From Acidobacteriota bacterium (GTDB lineage: Bacteria > Acidobacteriota > Holophagae > Holophagales > Holophagaceae), in assembly GCA_005788175.1 (NCBI GenBank), contig SXYX01000014.1:151277-215276 (forward strand): a DNA stretch of 64,000 nucleotides, in the 5' to 3' direction. The notes beneath the pieces were generated by a model. It was not told the DNA's origin and made no database searches. It saw only the letters and a list, made by a program, of their open reading frames with translations. Numbering within the stretch: position 1 is the first letter of the stretch; each line of letters starts with the position of its first letter. Positions 870-48,059 of this stretch are shown in pieces. The translations under genes and the position numbers were made by a program.

Positions 870-2480
870 TTAATTTCCTGAATGAATACTCGCTTGTATG
901 AATGAAGTAAAGAGTGGGTGAGGATGTAGTGGTTTAGATTTAAATTCTGGATGAAACTGACAGGCTATAAAATGGGGGTGATTCGAAAGTTCAATCATCT
1001 CAATAAAGATGCCATCTGGGCTAATCCCAGAAAAACATAATCCGGCTGATTCAAACTGAGCCTTATAAGCATGATTAAATTCATAGCGATGACGATGGCG
1101 TTCACTGATTTCCAAGGACTGATATGCCTCATGAGCTTTAGTACCTTGGGTGAGTGAACAAGGGTAAGCACCTAAACGCATCGTTCCACCCATTTCTTCA
1201 ACGCCAACTAAATCTCGTAGTTTAAAAATGATTTTGTCCTCGGCATGTTCGTTGAATTCAGTACTATCAGCTTTAGTAAGATTCAAAACATTTCTGGCAA
1301 ATTCTATACAAGCCATTTGGAGGCCTAAACAAATACCAAAGAATGGGATTTTATTTTCTCGTGCGTATTGGATGGCACGAATCATTCCTCGAGTCCCTCG
1401 GATGCCGAAGCCTCCTGGCACTAAAATCCCATCTGAATTGACTAATAATTTTTGGTGGTCATCTTTTTCTAGCTGTTCTGCCTCAACCCATCGTAGTTGA
1501 ACATCGGCAGCATAACTATATCCCGCATGATAGAGACTTTCGATAAGACTCTTGTAGCTCTCTTTGAATTCAACATATTTTCCAACGATAGTGATGATAA
1601 CTGTTCTACTAGGATTATGAATACGATCGATTAGGTTTTTCCATGGAGTTAAATCTGGCTCACAACTTGTTAATCCCAGGAGTTCAGATATTTTTTGATG
1701 AATATTTTGTTGATGGAAATTAATTGGAACTTCATAAATAGAAGATACATCTTGTGCACTGAAAACAGCATCTTTGGTCACAGAACAAAATAAAGCAATC
1801 TTTTCTCGAAGATCATCTGGAAGAATCATATCGCCTCGACAGAGGAGAATATCAGGATGAAGACCAAGCGTTCGTAGTTCTCTTACGCTATGTTGTGTAG
1901 GTTTTGATTTTAGCTCACCAGCTGTTTTAATGTATGGAACATAGGTTAAATGAATATTTATTGCATTAGGTTTCCCTTTTTCATCTGATCCAATATCAAG
2001 ACGAAATTGACGAACTGCTTCAAGAAAGGGCTGGCTTTCGATATCACCAACGGTCCCTCCAATTTCAACAATGACAATATCTATATCTTTTGACACAGAA
2101 TGTATAGAATCTTTGATTTCATTCGTGACATGAGGAATAACTTGAACCGTTTTACCAAGATAGTCCCCTCTTCGTTCTTTATTAAGGACATTGTTATAAA
2201 CCCGACCAGCCGTCCACGTATGATTTTTTGTTGTCTGACTAGACGTAAAACGTTCATAGTGTCCTAGATCAAGATCCGTCTCAGCTCCATCATCTGTTAC
2301 AAATACTTCTCCATGTTGGAAAGGAGACATCGTTCCAGGATCGATATTTAAATATGGATCCATTTTCATGAGTGTAACTTTTAATCCTTTGGCTTCGAGA
2401 AGAGCTCCAATACTAGCAGAGGCAATTCCCTTTCCTAGGCTGCTGAGCACGCCACCAGTCACAAAAATATATTTAGCCAT
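870..2480 (-). CDS. pyrG: CTP synthase
   Basis: [32 protein letters not shown], glutamine amidotransferase domain [16 protein letters not shown]; start set at MAKY with AGGAG upstream rather than the longer ORF start at 2510. Confidence 0.97.
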
Positions 2481-2490
2481 AGAAACTCCT

Positions 2491-4281
2491 CTACATTTCT
2501 GATGGGGCATGAATCCCCAGCCATCTTAAACCTTGGTTAATCACTCGAGCCGTTGCCAAACACAATAAAAGACGTGATTGTTTAATGGATTCAGATTGAT
2601 CGATATTGAGAATGGGCGAATCATTATAAAAAGCGCTGAACGATTTGGAAATAACCAGCAGTTGCCGCGCTAAGGATGTAGGAGATTGGCTGATCGCCGA
2701 AGCTTTAATCGCTAGTTCTAAACCATTTAATTCAAAAATCAAGTTTTGTGCTGAAGCGTGGTCAAGGCCCTCTAGTTTCTTTGGAACTTCGACGGATTCA
2801 TAATAAAGTCGTCCAAAATCCTCAACTCTAGGTATGGCCCATTCGGTCCAAGAGCCTGTAGCGCGTCTAAAAATTGAACAAATGCGGGCGTGAGCATATT
2901 GCACATAGGGTCCCGTATCGCCTTCAAAGGCTAAGATTTTATCCCACTCAAAAGTTATTGAAGTATTACGATCATTGAAAACATTAGCAAAGAATACAGC
3001 ACCTACTCCAAGCATTTCGGAAATTGCTGATTGATTATGAAGAGTTGGATTTTTAATACTAATAATTTTCTGAATACGATCCCGAGCTTCATTGAGAACA
3101 TCTTCAAGAAAGATGACATTACCTTTTCGGGTGCTCATTTTACCTTCTGGCAACGTAATGAGACCAAAAGGCACATGTGTTTGCTTATCTTTAAACCATG
3201 GATCAAGTTTATTGAGAATGGCAAATACTTGCTGAAAGTGAAAATTCTGCTCAGAGCCTGCTACATAAAAGCATCGAATATAATTCCATTTTTTCCTTCT
3301 AAATAAGGCAGCGGCAAGATCTCGTGAAGCGTAAATGCTTGTACCATCCCCTTTTTGTATTAGGCATGGGATTTCGAAGCCTTCATCTGATAAATCAACG
3401 ATCTTTGAACCACCGTCTCCTTCGCTTAATAGACCTCGCGACGTTAATGCATTCAAAACATCAGGGATTTGATCTTCATAGAAAGCTTCGCCATATTCAA
3501 GGGACTCAAAAGTAACACCCAGTCGATCGTAAATTCGATTAAATTCTATCAAAGACAAATCTCTAAACTTTTTCCAAAGCCTGCGTGCCTCGGGATCTTT
3601 GCTTTCGAGTTTTTTGAACCAAGCTCGACCCATTTCTCTGAGCGATACATCTTGCTCTTCTTTTTTATGAAAACGAATATAAAGTTGCAAAAGTCTATGC
3701 AGTGGAGTGATGGACTCCGAAGTACTTTCTGCGGCCCAAGGAAAGCTATCTTTCAGATCTGGGTTACTATCCTTCGCCCACAAATCATATGCAGCCAATA
3801 ATGTTCCGAACTGAGTCCCCCAATCACCAAGGTGATTGAGACGAATTACATCATAGCCCTCATAAGCGTAGATATTTGCTAAAGCATGCCCCAACATTGT
3901 GCTTCGAACATGTCCGATCGTAAATAATTTAGCAATATTAGGTGAACTATACTCCACTATAATTGAAGCATTCTTTTTTTCCTGTGAAGGAATCGGATAA
4001 TTCCCTAAAATGCTTGATAATGTTTCTTTCGTGCGAATTGATTCAGATAATCGAAGATTGAGATATGGTCCGACTGCTTCAATAGTGGCATCGGGGATAT
4101 TGATTTTAGACACCAGGGAAGACGCCAAGGCTTGAGGACTCATGCCCATGGATTTGGATGCTTTGAAACATGGAAAAGCAAGATCACCTTTCTGATAATC
4201 TTTTGGGCGCTCTAAGGCAACTTCTTGGGACGGCATAGCGAGCCCTAATTGCTCTGCAAAAGCCTTCTTAAATCCTTGCAC
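2491..4281 (-). CDS. argS: Arginyl-tRNA synthetase
   Basis: SSPNIAKLFTIGHVRSTMLGHALANIYAYEGYDVIRLNHLGDWGTQFG; KMSTRKG signature; C-terminal anticodon-binding domain. Confidence 0.96.
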   Translation of the reverse strand: MQGFKKAFAEQLGLAMPSQEVALERPKDYQKGDLAFPCFKASKSMGMSPQALASSLVSKINIPDATIEAVGPYLNLRLSESIRTKETLSSILGNYPIPSQEKKNASIIVEYSSPNIAKLFTIGHVRSTMLGHALANIYAYEGYDVIRLNHLGDWGTQFGTLLAAYDLWAKDSNPDLKDSFPWAAESTSESITPLHRLLQLYIRFHKKEEQDVSLREMGRAWFKKLESKDPEARRLWKKFRDLSLIEFNRIYDRLGVTFESLEYGEAFYEDQIPDVLNALTSRGLLSEGDGGSKIVDLSDEGFEIPCLIQKGDGTSIYASRDLAAALFRRKKWNYIRCFYVAGSEQNFHFQQVFAILNKLDPWFKDKQTHVPFGLITLPEGKMSTRKGNVIFLEDVLNEARDRIQKIISIKNPTLHNQSAISEMLGVGAVFFANVFNDRNTSITFEWDKILAFEGDTGPYVQYAHARICSIFRRATGSWTEWAIPRVEDFGRLYYESVEVPKKLEGLDHASAQNLIFELNGLELAIKASAISQSPTSLARQLLVISKSFSAFYNDSPILNIDQSESIKQSRLLLCLATARVINQGLRWLGIHAPSEM

Positions 4282-13187: not shown

Positions 13188-13934
13188 TTATTTAGGGGGT
13201 AATTCAAGAACAAGACTCATCGCTTCCTGGGATAAAACACCAAAGACTTGCCTAATCAAAATCGGGGTGAGAACCTGCGTCGGCTTTCCCGAGGCAATTA
13301 AATCTCCCCGATCGAGAAGAACTACTTGGTCCATACAGTGCGCAATCCTTAAATCATGAAGTGAAATTAGAATGGTAGTCCCTTGGTCAACCATAGCCCT
13401 AGCTTTCGTAAGGACTTCCAATTGATGTCGAATATCAAGAGAAGATAAGGGCTCATCCCAACATTGAATAGGGGCCTGAGTTACCATAGCGCGAGCTAAT
13501 AAAGTTCGCTGCTTTTCTCCGGTACTGACTTGGGTTATGGCTCGACTAGCTAAATTAGATAAATCCATTGCCTCGAAATAGGGCTCTAGATTATGAGCAT
13601 CGTCTCCCCATGGATAACGGCCCATTTTGAGAACTTCTTCAACAGTAAAGGGGAATTCAAAATTAGTTTCAGGGCCTACCCATGCTAATTGCTTAGCTCT
13701 TTGGGGAATAGGAATATCTTGTAGATTAAACCCATTCCAAGCCACCTCTCCGCTATAGGGGAGGAGACCAGAAACAGACTGGAGAAGTGTAGATTTACCG
13801 GAACCGTTGGGACCAATAATGGCAACTAGAGTACCTGGCTGAAATGTTAGTGACATGGAATTTAAGCGATCCACCACCTGAAGGTCTTGTGTTTTGATTG
13901 CAGAATTCATACTGTACGCTTTTGGAGAAGCCAA
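13188..13934 (-). CDS. btuD: ABC transporter ATP-binding protein, cobalamin/Fe-siderophore type
   Basis: Walker A GPNGSGKSTLLQSVSG; signature VSTGEKQRTLLARAM; last gene of the riboswitch-led btu-like operon. Confidence 0.85.
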   Translation of the reverse strand: MASPKAYSMNSAIKTQDLQVVDRLNSMSLTFQPGTLVAIIGPNGSGKSTLLQSVSGLLPYSGEVAWNGFNLQDIPIPQRAKQLAWVGPETNFEFPFTVEEVLKMGRYPWGDDAHNLEPYFEAMDLSNLASRAITQVSTGEKQRTLLARAMVTQAPIQCWDEPLSSLDIRHQLEVLTKARAMVDQGTTILISLHDLRIAHCMDQVVLLDRGDLIASGKPTQVLTPILIRQVFGVLSQEAMSLVLELPPK

Positions 13935-14884
13935 AGGAAGAAGGGTCCTCCGATCAATGAAGTAATGACCCCAACACGCAAGCCCACATTAAGTACTCTA
14001 GACACCAGATCGCAGCCAAGAAGAAATGCTGCTCCTCCAATGAGACAGCATGGAATCAGTCGCTTATGATCTGGCCCCAAAAGAAGTCGAAGTATGTGAG
14101 GAACAATTAACCCAATGAAACCTACGACACCTGCGACAGCTGTAGCGAGGGCTGTAAGGACTGTAGAAAGAATAATCATCTGCCAGCGAAATCGACGGAC
14201 ATTGACACCTAAGGTTTGGGCACCTGATTCACCTAGACTTAAAAGATTCATAGGTGCACCCATGGGAGCAATCAGAAAAGCCAAGAGAATAACAATGGGT
14301 AGGCTCATCCAAACATGTTCCCAAGTACGATCATCGAGACTACCTAGAAGCCAAAATAAAATTTGACCTGAGCGCTCGAAGGAGGAAATAGAAAGGGATA
14401 AAACAAAACTTGTTGCAGCTCCCAAAAGGGCATTAAGCGCAATACCAGCAAGGAGCAGCCTCTGTGTCCCTAGGCCGATTTCCGAGAGGGATAGTACTAG
14501 CAGCGTAGCAATAAAAGCTCCGATAATTGAAGCTCCAGGAAGCCCCCACATTCCAAATAAGTTGGAGCCAAACCCAATATAAAGTACAGCACCCAAAGCG
14601 CCACCAGTCGAGACACCTAGTAAACCTGGAGATGCTAGAGGATTTTTGAAGTATGCTTGCATCATTAATCCCGAAATAGATAAAGCGGCTCCAACAGCCA
14701 TTGCAACTAAAGTTCGGGGCAATCGAATATTCCAAACAATACTTTGTGATATCGAATCTGTATGACGTAGCCCAGCCCACAATTCAGAAAATGATAAATT
14801 CACTTCACCCCAAATGATTGACGCGAAGAATAACGTTCCCAGAAGAAGCGTCAAACCCCCCAAGGCTAAAGGGTGTTTTTTCAT
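13907..14884 (-). CDS. btuC: ABC transporter permease, FecCD/BtuC family
   Basis: NIRLPRTLVAMAVGAALSISGLMMQAYFKNPLASPGLLGVSTGGALGAV; GVVGFIGLIVPHILRLLLGPDHKRLIP. Confidence 0.92.
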   Translation of the reverse strand: MKKHPLALGGLTLLLGTLFFASIIWGEVNLSFSELWAGLRHTDSISQSIVWNIRLPRTLVAMAVGAALSISGLMMQAYFKNPLASPGLLGVSTGGALGAVLYIGFGSNLFGMWGLPGASIIGAFIATLLVLSLSEIGLGTQRLLLAGIALNALLGAATSFVLSLSISSFERSGQILFWLLGSLDDRTWEHVWMSLPIVILLAFLIAPMGAPMNLLSLGESGAQTLGVNVRRFRWQMIILSTVLTALATAVAGVVGFIGLIVPHILRLLLGPDHKRLIPCCLIGGAAFLLGCDLVSRVLNVGLRVGVITSLIGGPFFLWLLQKRTV

Positions 14885-15723
14885 TTAAATGACCCGGGAT
14901 GTAGTTGTTGAGCCATAATCTCATAACCTCGAATTCGACGGTGCGTGACACTTGATAAAAGAGCTTGGGGGATTAAAACTACTCTACCCTCCTGAGTAGC
15001 CGATAAAACGCTATAAGAAGGGTGTTTTCTTAGGTTAATGAGATTGTTAGAAACTGCAGAACTTGAAAGAACTAAGTAATCAACTTTCCATCGCATTAAA
15101 GCTTCAGAAGGTGTTGGACTATGACCACGGAGACCCGCTTCCCCAACAACATTAATAGCCCCTGCATAGTCACATAAATCTTGAAAAGTTGTGCCCATTC
15201 CCGCCAAATAACCATTAAGAGAAGGAGATAAGACACGACTACGAGAAACACCGTTCAAGCGATTTTGAAGAACAGAAACACGCTCTTTGCATTGACGGAT
15301 CAAATCCTCTGCCGCTTTGGACCGCCCTATAGCCTTACCAAGAGTGCGAATATTAACGTAGACGTCATCCAGTGTATTGAAACGATCAAATACTATAATG
15401 GGAATCCCCGCTCGCTTGACTTGCTCAACGAGTTCGGGTCTTGAATAACTAGTAAAAAGTACTAAATCGGGCTTGTACTTGAGAATTTGTTCAGCACTTC
15501 CGTCCACAACCTGCGCAAACCTTCCGGCAATCTCTGCAATATCTGAATAGTCAGGATTCCTAGATAAAAAACTTAAGGCAGCAATTCGGCTAGGCTCACA
15601 CAGATCGATTAATAATTCATCAGTACCGACAGTTTGGGAAATAATTCTTTGCGGTTCAACCTGAGACCAGATCGTGATACTGAAGATTAAACTACAAAGA
15701 ATATGTCGCATAAAATTATTCAA
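14881..15723 (-). CDS. btuF: Periplasmic cobalamin-binding protein, BtuF family
   Basis: Signal peptide ending IWSQ; RIISQTVGTDELLIDLCEPSRIAALS...; GMGTTFQDLCDYAGAINV; 4-nt overlaps with both operon neighbours. Confidence 0.85.
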   Translation of the reverse strand: MNNFMRHILCSLIFSITIWSQVEPQRIISQTVGTDELLIDLCEPSRIAALSFLSRNPDYSDIAEIAGRFAQVVDGSAEQILKYKPDLVLFTSYSRPELVEQVKRAGIPIIVFDRFNTLDDVYVNIRTLGKAIGRSKAAEDLIRQCKERVSVLQNRLNGVSRSRVLSPSLNGYLAGMGTTFQDLCDYAGAINVVGEAGLRGHSPTPSEALMRWKVDYLVLSSSAVSNNLINLRKHPSYSVLSATQEGRVVLIPQALLSSVTHRRIRGYEIMAQQLHPGSFK

Positions 15724-17747
15724 AAAAGATACCTTACTCCAATACTGATGATGGGAGATTGAGCGGGGAAACCATAAAGTTGCTGCGCATTATTCCTAAA
15801 ATCATATTTTCGCAATAGCCAATCCTGAAGAGTGACCTTGGGTTGCAATATATGCTGACCTCTAAGACTGATCTCAAGTGAGGAACTGTATGACCAAAAA
15901 ATACCTATGCCGAGATCTTGAAAGGGTTGACGGTAAGCTCCTAATCGAGCTGGAAACCCTCCAAAATTATCGTAGTGGCTGCCGAAATAATTCCATTGTA
16001 AATTTGCGCGTACTTGTTTCCATTTTTTATCGAGTCCAAATGAAATAATGTTAAAAGGCCGACGAATAGAAGTACTCGTAATCAATTGTTGAGATTCAAT
16101 TACATCTAAATCTCTAGCTTCTTGATTACGGTAGGACCCCCTCATATTCCAGGAATCTCCTCGATAGGTCAGAATGATCTCAGCACTTTGTATTCTTAAA
16201 TTCTTTCCATTGGCGTAATCAAAAGAATTAAGATCAAAATAAATTAAATTGCGGTGCAACATTCGAGATAATTTGACTTGAATATCATAACGATCCCAGC
16301 GTGTTTCATAGCCAGCGTGAATAAAAGTACCCTCTTCGCCATCGAGTTTTTTATAACGATTGGGATTGTAGCCAAAACTAGCGGGATTCAATCTGTTTTT
16401 TGCATGATAAAGATTGCTCGTTAGGGGAGCTAAGCCAAAGCCTGTCCCGAAAGAAATAAACCACTTTTCATCAGTCCCCATCAAACTTTCAATGGGCAGA
16501 TAAGTCACACCTAATCGCCAAGTCCTTGCTCGAACTGATACTGGATCAATCGTGAATCCAGAAGATGCAGTTGTGAAGCTTTGTTTATCACGATCTTCAC
16601 GCAGCGTGGCGAGTAAACGAATTGTTGGAGAAGTTTGCCAATGTGATTCAACCGCACTCGACATATGACTACCTGAGCCGTAATCAACTCCCGAAGGATA
16701 AGCAGGGGTCTCAGCTCGCTCTTGGAATATTTGAAGACGATAAGCAAAAGACAAATCTGTGGATTGTTGCCAACTAGCTTTCAATCCACCTTCAGTCCGT
16801 CGACTTTGATATGGATCATATCCAGAACCCCCAAATTTAGGCTCAAACCTGGATTGCGAAGAAGAGCCATAGTAAATGGATAGAGGTATCGTATTGAACA
16901 GGACTGTTTCGTAGCGTAGACCTAATTGCTCATTACGTAGCAAGAACTCTCGACTTGCATTGAAAGCTGAGTTAAGCCTAGGGCTTGAGTCTAATTGAAC
17001 ACTAGCAAAGGGAATAGGCACTCCTTGATAAAAATTTCTATAGTCTAGGGAAAAATTATGTTTACCAATCACTTGTCCTAATCCTAATTGACTACCAAAA
17101 CTCCTATAGTTTTCTATAGTAGAAATAGGTTGGGCCTCTCTGTTGGCATCGACAGATGCTCTGAGCCAACCTCCGTTCCATCGAGAGTTCATTGAGGTTC
17201 TCAAATTTTGATATGCTTGATTACCAAGAGCTAGATCAATACTTTTTTTCTCATTTTCAGGTGAGCTCTGGTCTGTATACAGTGCAATGACACCACCCAT
17301 GGCACCTGAGCCAACTATAGTTGAAGCATTGCTATCAATAATTTCAATACGTTTAATTCCTACAAGTGAAACACTATTAGGGTTCACAGATCCTAAACCT
17401 GCAGCATCATTTATACGAATACCATTGAGCAGAACAGCCACATCCTCGGGCCGGCTTCCGCCGATACGAAGAGTGGCAGCCGAACCAGGCCCCCCAGCTG
17501 ATAAGACTTGTCCAGGTAGCGCATAAGATAACAACTCTCCAAGAGTTTTTGCTGCGTATCGCTCGATATCTTCTTGAGTAAGAACCCTAACATGATTGGG
17601 AGTCTTACGAAGATCAACCCGATCAAACTCAGCTGTAACTGATACGACAGCTGAAGCTTCCTTTTTGTCCATTCGTTCGATTGAGTTAGGTTCCTGACTC
17701 CAAAGAAATAGATTTAGAGACAAGTAAAAAAATATAGTTTTTCCCAA
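15720..17747 (-). CDS. btuB: TonB-dependent outer-membrane receptor, probable cobalamin receptor
   Basis: Plug domain: LRKTPNHVRVLTQEDIERYAAKTLGELLSYALPGQV...GGSRPEDVAVLLNGIRINDA; C-terminal beta strand ending RYLF; TTG start preceded by AGGAGG and by a cobalamin riboswitch. Confidence 0.88.
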   Translation of the reverse strand: MGKTIFFYLSLNLFLWSQEPNSIERMDKKEASAVVSVTAEFDRVDLRKTPNHVRVLTQEDIERYAAKTLGELLSYALPGQVLSAGGPGSAATLRIGGSRPEDVAVLLNGIRINDAAGLGSVNPNSVSLVGIKRIEIIDSNASTIVGSGAMGGVIALYTDQSSPENEKKSIDLALGNQAYQNLRTSMNSRWNGGWLRASVDANREAQPISTIENYRSFGSQLGLGQVIGKHNFSLDYRNFYQGVPIPFASVQLDSSPRLNSAFNASREFLLRNEQLGLRYETVLFNTIPLSIYYGSSSQSRFEPKFGGSGYDPYQSRRTEGGLKASWQQSTDLSFAYRLQIFQERAETPAYPSGVDYGSGSHMSSAVESHWQTSPTIRLLATLREDRDKQSFTTASSGFTIDPVSVRARTWRLGVTYLPIESLMGTDEKWFISFGTGFGLAPLTSNLYHAKNRLNPASFGYNPNRYKKLDGEEGTFIHAGYETRWDRYDIQVKLSRMLHRNLIYFDLNSFDYANGKNLRIQSAEIILTYRGDSWNMRGSYRNQEARDLDVIESQQLITSTSIRRPFNIISFGLDKKWKQVRANLQWNYFGSHYDNFGGFPARLGAYRQPFQDLGIGIFWSYSSSLEISLRGQHILQPKVTLQDWLLRKYDFRNNAQQLYGFPAQSPIISIGVRYLF

Positions 17748-17814: not shown

Positions 17815-18000
17815 GCTAGGTTGAAAGATGTTTACGACCGGTCTCCGGACTTACACACGACAGGAATTTGATTCCTAACTTCTGTCTTCCCAAGTCAAAC
17901 TCAGTGACTGAAGTTTTTAAGTCTCATAAATAAAAAATTTATGGTGCTTACCGTTGCGGGGCAGTGCTGGATTCTCACCAGCTTCCCGACATCGAAAACG
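17815..18000 (-). ncRNA. Cobalamin (AdoCbl-type) riboswitch
   Basis: Minus strand reads GGGAAGCTGGTGAGAATCCAGCACTGCCCCGCAACGGTAAG ... TGGGAAGAC ... AAGTCCGGAGACCGG (B12 box at about 17836-17852), directly upstream of btuB; boundaries approximate. Confidence 0.95.
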
Positions 18001-18058
18001 TTATTGGATTGTCAATGCTTAAACTTGACCGCCCAATCAACAAAACACAAGGTTTATT

Positions 18059-44635: not shown

Positions 44636-46036
44636 ATGACCCGAACCTCAGAAGATCTCAAAAGTATCCAGAAAAGACTAGGCAGTCTCTATCCTGAAGC
44701 GATTTGCATGTTGGATCATCGTAATGCTTATGAACTAACAGTCGCAACTATTCTTAGCGCTCAATGTACAGATGCTCGAGTAAATAATACAACTCCTCTC
44801 TTATTTAGAATGTACCCAAATCCTAAAGATCTATCTTTAGCTAAAGTTAAGGACATCGAAAGGGTGATTAAACCCACAGGTTTCTATAAAAATAAATCTA
44901 AGTTTCTTATCGCAATGGCTAAACAAGTGGTTCAATATCACCAAGGTAGCATTCCAACACAAATAGAGGATTTGATTCAACTCCCTGGAGTAGGGAAAAA
45001 GACAGCCAACGTTATTTTAAGTGTTGCCTTTGGGGTACCCGCCATGGCGGTTGATACCCATGTTGGGAGATTAGCTCGTCGACTGGGCTTAAGCAACTCG
45101 ATGAACCCTAATCAAGTAGAAAAGGATTTGTGCGAGCTTTTTGATAGACGGACATGGAGTTTACTCCACCACCAATTAATTACTCATGGGCGTTCAACGT
45201 GTAAAGCTCAGTCACCTTTGTGCCATAGTTGTAAACTTCGGGCTCTTTGCCCAACGGGATTGCGTGAAAAAAAGGACCCCCATACGGGACATTGGGTAAA
45301 AAGTCGAGAAAGAATTGTAAGCCTCGTTCCATCTATCACAGAACTTCTATGCAACTGGGGCATGGTGACGTCGTTAGTAGGTCGAACAAATTACTGTATT
45401 CATCCAAGTAGTGATTTACAAAAGATACCTAAAGTGGGTGGTACTAAGAATCCAAGGCTCAAAAATATTTTAGCTGCCAAACCTACCTTAGTCATTTTGG
45501 AGCGTTCCGAAAATACCCTGAAGATATCCCAAGAACTAAAAGCAGAAAAGATTCCTACCCTCACTCTCGATGTGACAAATTTCAGGAGTTGGATCCAGTC
45601 ATATCAGCTCTTAGGGAGTCGACTAAACCAGGAGCCGAGATCTAAGAAATCAATTTCTGAACTTAGGAAATCTATTCGTGGTCATCGACACAAAAATCTT
45701 AAGGTTCTCATCTTAATTTGGAAATCACCGTGGATTGCAGCAGGTTCACAATCATACTGTGGGGGCTTAATTCAAGCCTTAGGAGGACGCGTATTGGGGG
45801 ATACTAAAAAATCAACCGGTTACCCGCGGCTTAATTCTGCCGAGTTAGTAAAACTAAAACCCAATTTAATTTTATTACCTACCGAACCCTATCCCTTCAA
45901 TGATAAACATCTTAAAGAACTACAGCGCCTTTTCCCGGATAGTGATGTGAATATTATGGATGGCGAACTAGCCACCTGGTACTTGAGTAGGACATCTTCG
46001 GCACTTCGTTACTTAAGACGTCATTATTTTGACTGA
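44636..46036 (+). CDS. Fusion: endonuclease III (Nth) + leaderless BtuF-like substrate-binding domain
   Basis: aa 1-~211 Nth: LSAQCTDARVN, LPGVGKKTANVILSVAFGVPAMAVDTHVGRLARRLGL, CKAQSPLCHSCKLRALC (C-x6-C-x2-C-x5-C); aa ~221-466: RIVSLVPSITELLCNWGMVTSLVGRTNYCIHP...VGGTKNPRLKNILAAKPTLVILE. Confidence 0.93.
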   Translation: MTRTSEDLKSIQKRLGSLYPEAICMLDHRNAYELTVATILSAQCTDARVNNTTPLLFRMYPNPKDLSLAKVKDIERVIKPTGFYKNKSKFLIAMAKQVVQYHQGSIPTQIEDLIQLPGVGKKTANVILSVAFGVPAMAVDTHVGRLARRLGLSNSMNPNQVEKDLCELFDRRTWSLLHHQLITHGRSTCKAQSPLCHSCKLRALCPTGLREKKDPHTGHWVKSRERIVSLVPSITELLCNWGMVTSLVGRTNYCIHPSSDLQKIPKVGGTKNPRLKNILAAKPTLVILERSENTLKISQELKAEKIPTLTLDVTNFRSWIQSYQLLGSRLNQEPRSKKSISELRKSIRGHRHKNLKVLILIWKSPWIAAGSQSYCGGLIQALGGRVLGDTKKSTGYPRLNSAELVKLKPNLILLPTEPYPFNDKHLKELQRLFPDSDVNIMDGELATWYLSRTSSALRYLRRHYFD

Positions 46037-47658
46037 TTTAATTTTATAAATTTGAGCATGTCCTTGGGACTGCGATAACCTAATGATCTTCTGATTTCCT
46101 GCCCATCTGCATCTAAAATTAGTACTGTGGGATACCCAATTATTTGGTAGCGCTTTGCAAGGTCGGGTCGGATTTTGTCCGTATCAATACGTATGGCAAT
46201 ATAGTTGCTCTGAATATATGCACGCAGATCTTCATCGGGCCAAGTCTTTTCATCCAGTTCATAACAGGCGGCACACCAATCAGAGTATATGTCGACAAGA
46301 ATGGGTCGATTTTGTTTCTTAGCTTCTAAAATGGCGGTCTCTAAATCCTGGTTTCTCCACTCTTTCTTGAAGCTTTGATCTAAACCTAATATTTTCGCAA
46401 TAGATCCACGAAAAATCGTGACATTAAGGTTTACTTCGACAAGACGAAGGGTGAAATAAAGTACAAATAAAGTAATAAAAATAAAAATAACTTTTCGAAC
46501 TAGATTCAAATACGCAGTCTCAATATTCATTTTTAAATATATTAAGAAAGAGATGATGGTCAAAATCAAGCACATCCACAAAATCGCAGTGATGGGGAGG
46601 ACGGTACGAAGTGTCCATAGCGCAAAAGCGATGACCATAAATCCCATGGTCTTTTTCATGAATTCTAGCCATACCCCGCTTTTGGGGAGCCGTGTTCCTA
46701 AAACGCCCACCATCATGAACGGCACGCCCATACCAAGAGCAAATATAAAGAGCTCAATAGCACCCAGCAAAATGGTCTTGCCTTGCGAGATGGCTACCAA
46801 GATAGTTCCCAAAATTGGTCCTACACAGGGCGCTGATATGGGACCCAAAGCTACGCCTGTTAAAAATGGGCCCCATACTCCTGAGCGGCTAGTCCATGAT
46901 TGGAGTCGAGTTTGGGCTTCACTAGATAAGCTAATTTCAAAGAAGCCCAAGAGTGAAATACCAAAAATAATGAATAAACCACTTATAGTTGTGATGAAAG
47001 CGACTGATCCTAAGATAGATCCAAATACGTTTCCCGTAAGGGCAGCAATAACTCCTAAGGTGGAGTATGTTAAGGCCATACCTATAATCAAGGCGAAGGT
47101 CAAAAGAGCGGCTTGTGTTCTAGTAATGTCGCGAATTCCAATAACTGCTAATGTGATGGGGATAGTCGGATATACACAAGGTGTGAATGCAGCCAGAAGG
47201 CCCGCGAAAAATATACCCACAAAAGACCACCACGAAAAAGACATGTCGGTGACCGATGAAGAAGAGGTCACGGGACGAACTTTGATTTTCTGCTGGGTGG
47301 GTGGATAACAAATGCCTCCGGGGCCTTCAGTGCAGGGTTGATAGGTAACTGTCAGTTCGAGTTCCGAAGCGGACGTATCAAAAATTAGAGGTAAAATTAA
47401 CTCTTGTCGATAAATATCGTCGCCTAACTCATCTTGCTCTGTAGCTTTGGGTAATCGGCCCATTCGTACAGCCTTTGGATCTTCAAGAGATTCAACCTTT
47501 AGAAACGCTTTTTTAAGATGCGCTATAGGGGGGGTCTGTATGACTATACGGTTTTCATCTTGTTGAATACGTATGGATTCAACCGGTCGAAATTCAATCT
47601 GAGTCTGGCCCAATAAAATTGAGGCAGAAAGAAGGAATAGAACCAAAGTTTTTTTCAT
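46024..47658 (-). CDS. dsbD: Thiol:disulfide interchange protein DsbD
   Basis: Signal peptide ending LLGQ; central TM domain AFTPCVYPTIPITLAVIG...GPISAPCVGPILGTIL; C-terminal thioredoxin DIYSDWCAACYELDEKTW. Confidence 0.93.
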   Translation of the reverse strand: MKKTLVLFLLSASILLGQTQIEFRPVESIRIQQDENRIVIQTPPIAHLKKAFLKVESLEDPKAVRMGRLPKATEQDELGDDIYRQELILPLIFDTSASELELTVTYQPCTEGPGGICYPPTQQKIKVRPVTSSSSVTDMSFSWWSFVGIFFAGLLAAFTPCVYPTIPITLAVIGIRDITRTQAALLTFALIIGMALTYSTLGVIAALTGNVFGSILGSVAFITTISGLFIIFGISLLGFFEISLSSEAQTRLQSWTSRSGVWGPFLTGVALGPISAPCVGPILGTILVAISQGKTILLGAIELFIFALGMGVPFMMVGVLGTRLPKSGVWLEFMKKTMGFMVIAFALWTLRTVLPITAILWMCLILTIISFLIYLKMNIETAYLNLVRKVIFIFITLFVLYFTLRLVEVNLNVTIFRGSIAKILGLDQSFKKEWRNQDLETAILEAKKQNRPILVDIYSDWCAACYELDEKTWPDEDLRAYIQSNYIAIRIDTDKIRPDLAKRYQIIGYPTVLILDADGQEIRRSLGYRSPKDMLKFIKLNQSK

Positions 47659-47720: not shown

Positions 47721-48059
47721 ATGTCTATTGTTTTCTCAATTAATCGTCCATTTGTGTCCGATCATTTTCATGATCTTCCTGGTTTCATCGAAGCGAGGCA
47801 TGGTCATAATTGGCAAATCGATGCATCTTTCGAAATTGAACACATAGAGGATCGAAGTATTGCGGATAACGATATGCATGCATGGATTAAATCTGTCGAT
47901 TATACGCTTTTGAATGATTCGGAAGAACTCTCGGGGCGTAACCCTACAGCTGAACTTTTATCTCAATGGGCTTGCGAATATCTCATGAGTCGTGGACATC
48001 GTGTAATGGAAATCCGAATCCAAGAGAAGGCAAATTATTGGGCGCGGTGTCGACCCTAA
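47721..48059 (+). CDS. 6-pyruvoyltetrahydropterin synthase family protein, PTPS-III-type motif (ExxHGH)
   Basis: FVSDHFHDLPGFIEARHGHNWQIDA; VDYTLLND; RNPTAELLSQWACEYL; IRIQEKANYWA. Confidence 0.88.
   Translation: MSIVFSINRPFVSDHFHDLPGFIEARHGHNWQIDASFEIEHIEDRSIADNDMHAWIKSVDYTLLNDSEELSGRNPTAELLSQWACEYLMSRGHRVMEIRIQEKANYWARCRP

Follow-up and report, generated by a model that had tools for sequence, protein, structure and literature searches.

Does a gene that appears to join an endonuclease III (Nth) to a BtuF-like ligand-binding domain encode a genuine two-domain protein, and what could such a domain do on the same chain as a DNA repair enzyme? The gene lies at positions 44636-46036 (+) of the window, by which we mean the whole stretch of 64,000 nucleotides analysed here, taken from contig SXYX01000014.1 of a member of the Holophagaceae (Acidobacteriota). 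It forms one open frame of 466 codons, and its start and stop agree with these coordinates. Pfam placed HhH-GPD at residues 36-169, HHH at residues 102-129 and Peripla_BP_2 (PF01497) at residues 227-426, while the NCBIfam model NF038402 ('helical backbone metal receptor') matched residues 226-449 at 122 bits against a cut-off of 30. These searches bear out the original prediction of a single 466-residue product with a complete Nth and a complete COG0614/TroA-like half. The second half was also expected to have no signal peptide, and indeed the domain comes straight after Nth with no signal sequence. Both parts are members of known families. Their combined architecture is real, old, conserved and under selection, and it is not described in the papers that we searched for Nth/BtuF-like fusions or signal-less BtuF-like proteins. 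An AlphaFold model built from a two-sequence alignment reached a mean pLDDT of 34.6 and was left unused.

A DsbD-like gene (46024-47658, -) is convergent with the fusion gene and overlaps its 3' end by 13 bases; it is followed by a QueD-like ORF (47721-48059, +), both genes having been named by eye. This DsbD-like/QueD-like order near nth recurs in fused and in some unfused Holophagaceae genomes.

The Nth half (residues 1-208, 44636-45259, +; PF00730/PF00633) gave a full-length match to the endonuclease III equivalog TIGR01083 (244.8 bits, cut-off 211.7). The helix-hairpin-helix with GVGKKTAN (residues 102-129, 44939-45022, +), VDTH (residues 139-142, 45050-45061, +) and the C-x6-C-x2-C-x5-C loop of 4Fe-4S ligands (Cys189/196/199/205, 45200-45250, +) were found in this protein and in each of the 30 Holophagaceae proteins examined. 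We take Lys122, within GVGKKTAN, to be the catalytic lysine, and Asp140, within VDTH, is presumably the catalytic aspartate, in the role known from E. coli Nth. A short segment behind the loop (residues 206-225, 45251-45310, +) comprises a PTG...DPHTG tail and a short linker, and contains a run of seven A. This PTG...DPHxG tail (45251-45289, +), to our knowledge missing from E. coli Nth, also occurs in most unfused Nth of the family and therefore belongs to Nth. Judged by its motifs and profile match, the Nth half is the ordinary endonuclease III of the cell.

The second domain (residues 226-466, 45311-46033, +) was delimited by PF01497, NF038402 and alignment. It scored 39.5 bits against the BtuF equivalog NF002894, far below the cut-off of 234. 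In a profile alignment to E. coli BtuF, aromatic residues are kept at the positions of Tyr50 and Trp196 (Tyr253 and Tyr396), and Thr270 and Glu289 occupy the positions of Trp66 and Trp85. We take these two tryptophans of BtuF to stack on B12, and the binding pocket of the fused domain thus differs from that of BtuF.

The full-length fusion was found in one open frame in 58 of 77 Holophagaceae genomes, much of this sample being drafts and several of the 58 being single-contig assemblies; a few further genomes carry pieces of the fusion at contig ends. It is kept across at least seven genera, and one of the genomes that have it is reduced, at about 1 Mb. Homologues in the family are thus fused and do not always occur as two separate unlinked genes, the finding that the original prediction had named as fatal to it. 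Eight other Holophagaceae genomes encode a complete Nth without the TroA/BtuF-like domain, which shows that Nth can do without it; the rest of these eight genomes yielded no homologue of the domain, apart from one very weak match in G026. When 34 genomes of the family were scanned with NF038402, all 25 fusion-type matches lay behind Nth. Three further matches above the cut-off (45-58 bits) did not, and we took them as BtuF-like because each shares its contig with a cobalamin riboswitch that is no more than about 6 kb away. The search for fusions was systematic within Acidobacteriota, one contig scan reached close relatives only, and nothing was found in the viral contigs scanned.

Both halves are under strong purifying selection. 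Between the two closest genomes, dN and dS were about 0.10 and 0.99 for Nth and 0.12 and 1.70 for the domain, ratios that are approximate since dS is near or beyond saturation. The linker behind the DPHxG tail is 7 residues long in the genus of the window and ranges from 7 to 58 residues across the family. It is rich in Pro, Ala and Gly, and this variable length and composition fit what is expected of independently folding modules.

Where the domain came from was addressed with trees of both halves. Fused copies of the domain form one clade (support 100/98), within a signal-less clade whose separation from the BtuF-like proteins is itself supported (96/98). Standalone signal-less relatives occur in other Acidobacteriota, in Actinomycetota and in Bacteroidota. 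The two placed nearest to the fused clade, with weak support, are one protein from another family of Acidobacteriota and one from the Bacteroidota. The Nth tree requires two changes for the fused state, which may still have a single origin. Several standalone relatives have only a few residues ahead of the domain (one residue in L102, three at most in L107, six in L129), which leaves no room for a signal peptide; the signal-less clade was thus probably cytoplasmic before the fusion. This revises the original prediction, which had pictured a normally periplasmic domain tethered to a repair enzyme: the closest relatives are already signal-less standalone proteins, in a clade apart from the exported BtuF-like ones. 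The domain that joined nth was, to go by its relatives, probably cytoplasmic already, and no periplasmic protein would have been captured. The standalone locus L094 carries, at 1644-3686 (-), a pair of adjoining but distinct signal-less COG0614 proteins, of which the second is from another divergent branch; a TonB receptor, a FecCD permease and an exported BtuF are encoded nearby.

The window also holds a separate btu operon (13188-17747, -), composed of genes for a TonB receptor (15720-17747, -), BtuF (14881-15723, -), a BtuC-like permease (13907-14884, -) and a BtuD-like ATPase (13188-13934, -). Upstream is a cobalamin riboswitch (17819-18011, -; RF00174, 83.6 bits), so that the exported BtuF said to lie under such a riboswitch is real. 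The genome, a draft of 893,751 bases that is 85% complete, contains one FecCD permease only. Since the operon has its own BtuF and no second permease was found in this draft, the transporter has no need of the fused domain as its receptor, in agreement with the original view that it is not the transporter's own binding protein; a second transporter that uses it is unlikely. The complete cobalamin uptake operon, in a genome that gave no strong CobQ-type match, is consistent with B12 scavenging. Across 36 Holophagaceae genomes tested, B12-binding proteins were found in all and a cobalamin riboswitch in 35, and strong CobQ-type matches occur in fused and unfused genomes alike. We therefore rejected the idea that presence of the domain tracks B12 demand or synthesis, as no clear pattern emerged, including against cobQ. 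One genome without the fused domain (G018) has nine cobalamin riboswitch matches, and most of its relatives have one.

The best explanation overall, to which we assign a probability of about 0.5, is that two independent cytoplasmic modules, one for repair and one for holding a ligand, share one chain. The Nth half would remove oxidised pyrimidines and nick AP sites, and the TroA/BtuF-like half would close on a small cytoplasmic ligand and so hold or buffer it. A single joining event, in an ancestor shared by most Holophagaceae, would have linked the two by a tether that varies in length, and each module would keep its own job. The join would thereby provide co-expression at a fixed ratio and not an allosteric machine. 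What we infer in this explanation is that the modules function independently, that a ligand is held in the cytoplasm and that this ligand is a corrinoid. Most likely each domain does its work independently of the other, on a flexible tether. A corrinoid is our best guess for the ligand, on circumstantial evidence from the gene context of a few relatives. Two standalone relatives (L092 and L094) lie within btu operons, a third (L104) directly borders a methylmalonyl-CoA mutase fragment as well as a gene for a B12-binding domain, and a fourth (L086) has a mutase-like ORF nearby; corrinoid genes are missing from the neighbourhood of most of the 33 standalone relatives. Furthermore, cobQ is some 2 kb away from one fused gene (in G035) and a btu operon some 6 kb away, with unrelated genes in the intervals.

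The domain might instead bind another metal chelate or serve in protein-protein contacts or DNA docking, which we regard as rather unlikely. The clade has an invariant residue set of its own that would suit such a role: Cys254, Glu292, Pro365, Pro418, Phe421, Gly443 and Trp448 are identical in all 57 fused and standalone sequences, and Trp362 is conserved in all but one. Lys271 and Glu417 are conserved residues of the domain as well. The changes at the Trp66 and Trp85 positions point the same way, whereas the corrinoid gene context of the few standalone relatives above argues for a corrinoid.

A domain that senses a corrinoid or heme could, once closed, alter DNA binding or the cluster of Nth and so make base-excision repair depend on cofactor status. 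Retention of the covalent link through so many genera and in the reduced genome speaks for such coupling, as does the occurrence of the domain in Holophagaceae only in fusion with Nth. However, the linker varies eightfold in length, Nth occurs on its own in several genera, and nth is absent from the flanks of all 33 standalone relatives (under 1 kb to about 9 kb per side). We thus consider ligand-coupled repair improbable, and hold it a shade more doubtful again that glycosylase activity or the cluster is gated specifically by a cytoplasmic corrinoid-type ligand on the TroA-like domain of the same chain.

Supply or protection of the iron or the 4Fe-4S cluster of Nth by the domain is very unlikely. 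The domain does adjoin a cluster enzyme and has an invariant cysteine, but Cys254 is the only one, no metal-site signature was seen in the domain, and the unfused Nth of sister genera has the same cluster motif. Finally, although the run of seven A at 45267-45273 is close to the junction, a merger of two genes by sequencing or assembly error can be dismissed with near certainty, as the frame is kept in congeneric genomes with a broken run and the fusion also occurs in Holophagaceae genomes assembled as a single contig. GLREKKDPHTG is in frame in two other members of the genus, where the run is interrupted by synonymous changes and reads GAGAAAAAAGAT in one and GAGAAGAAAGAT in the other; the public record of one of them (BJFQ01000001.1) likewise has GLREKKDPHTG in frame. 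The frameshift that had been named as a possible flaw of the original prediction thus did not occur.

Two modules that share a chain and work independently remain our preferred reading, and the fusion is of use beyond it. The signal-less TroA/BtuF-like clade spans several phyla, and no role for it was found in the papers searched. Its lasting covalent attachment, in the Holophagaceae, to an enzyme as well understood as Nth offers a tangible way to study it, and does so in organisms that can be cultivated, Geothrix among them (if genus g4 is Geothrix). Should the two halves prove to be functionally linked, DNA repair would be connected with cofactor status.

Compared with known systems, the first half resembles endonuclease III in its full-length match above the TIGR01083 equivalog cut-off, its catalytic motifs and its 4Fe-4S loop, and the fusion differs by the C-terminal PTG...DPHxG tail and the second domain. 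The likeness of that domain to BtuF (E. coli, 1n2z) is one of sequence relationship (E about 1e-12), with aromatics at the Tyr50 and Trp196 positions. In contrast to BtuF, it has no export signal, is changed at the Trp66 and Trp85 positions, belongs to a separate clade and lies outside any transporter operon in the genome of the window. Another counterpart is the TroA_like subfamily of NF038402, which the domain matches over its full length and with which it shares the absence of a signal peptide; these proteins stand alone elsewhere and are fused behind Nth in the Holophagaceae.
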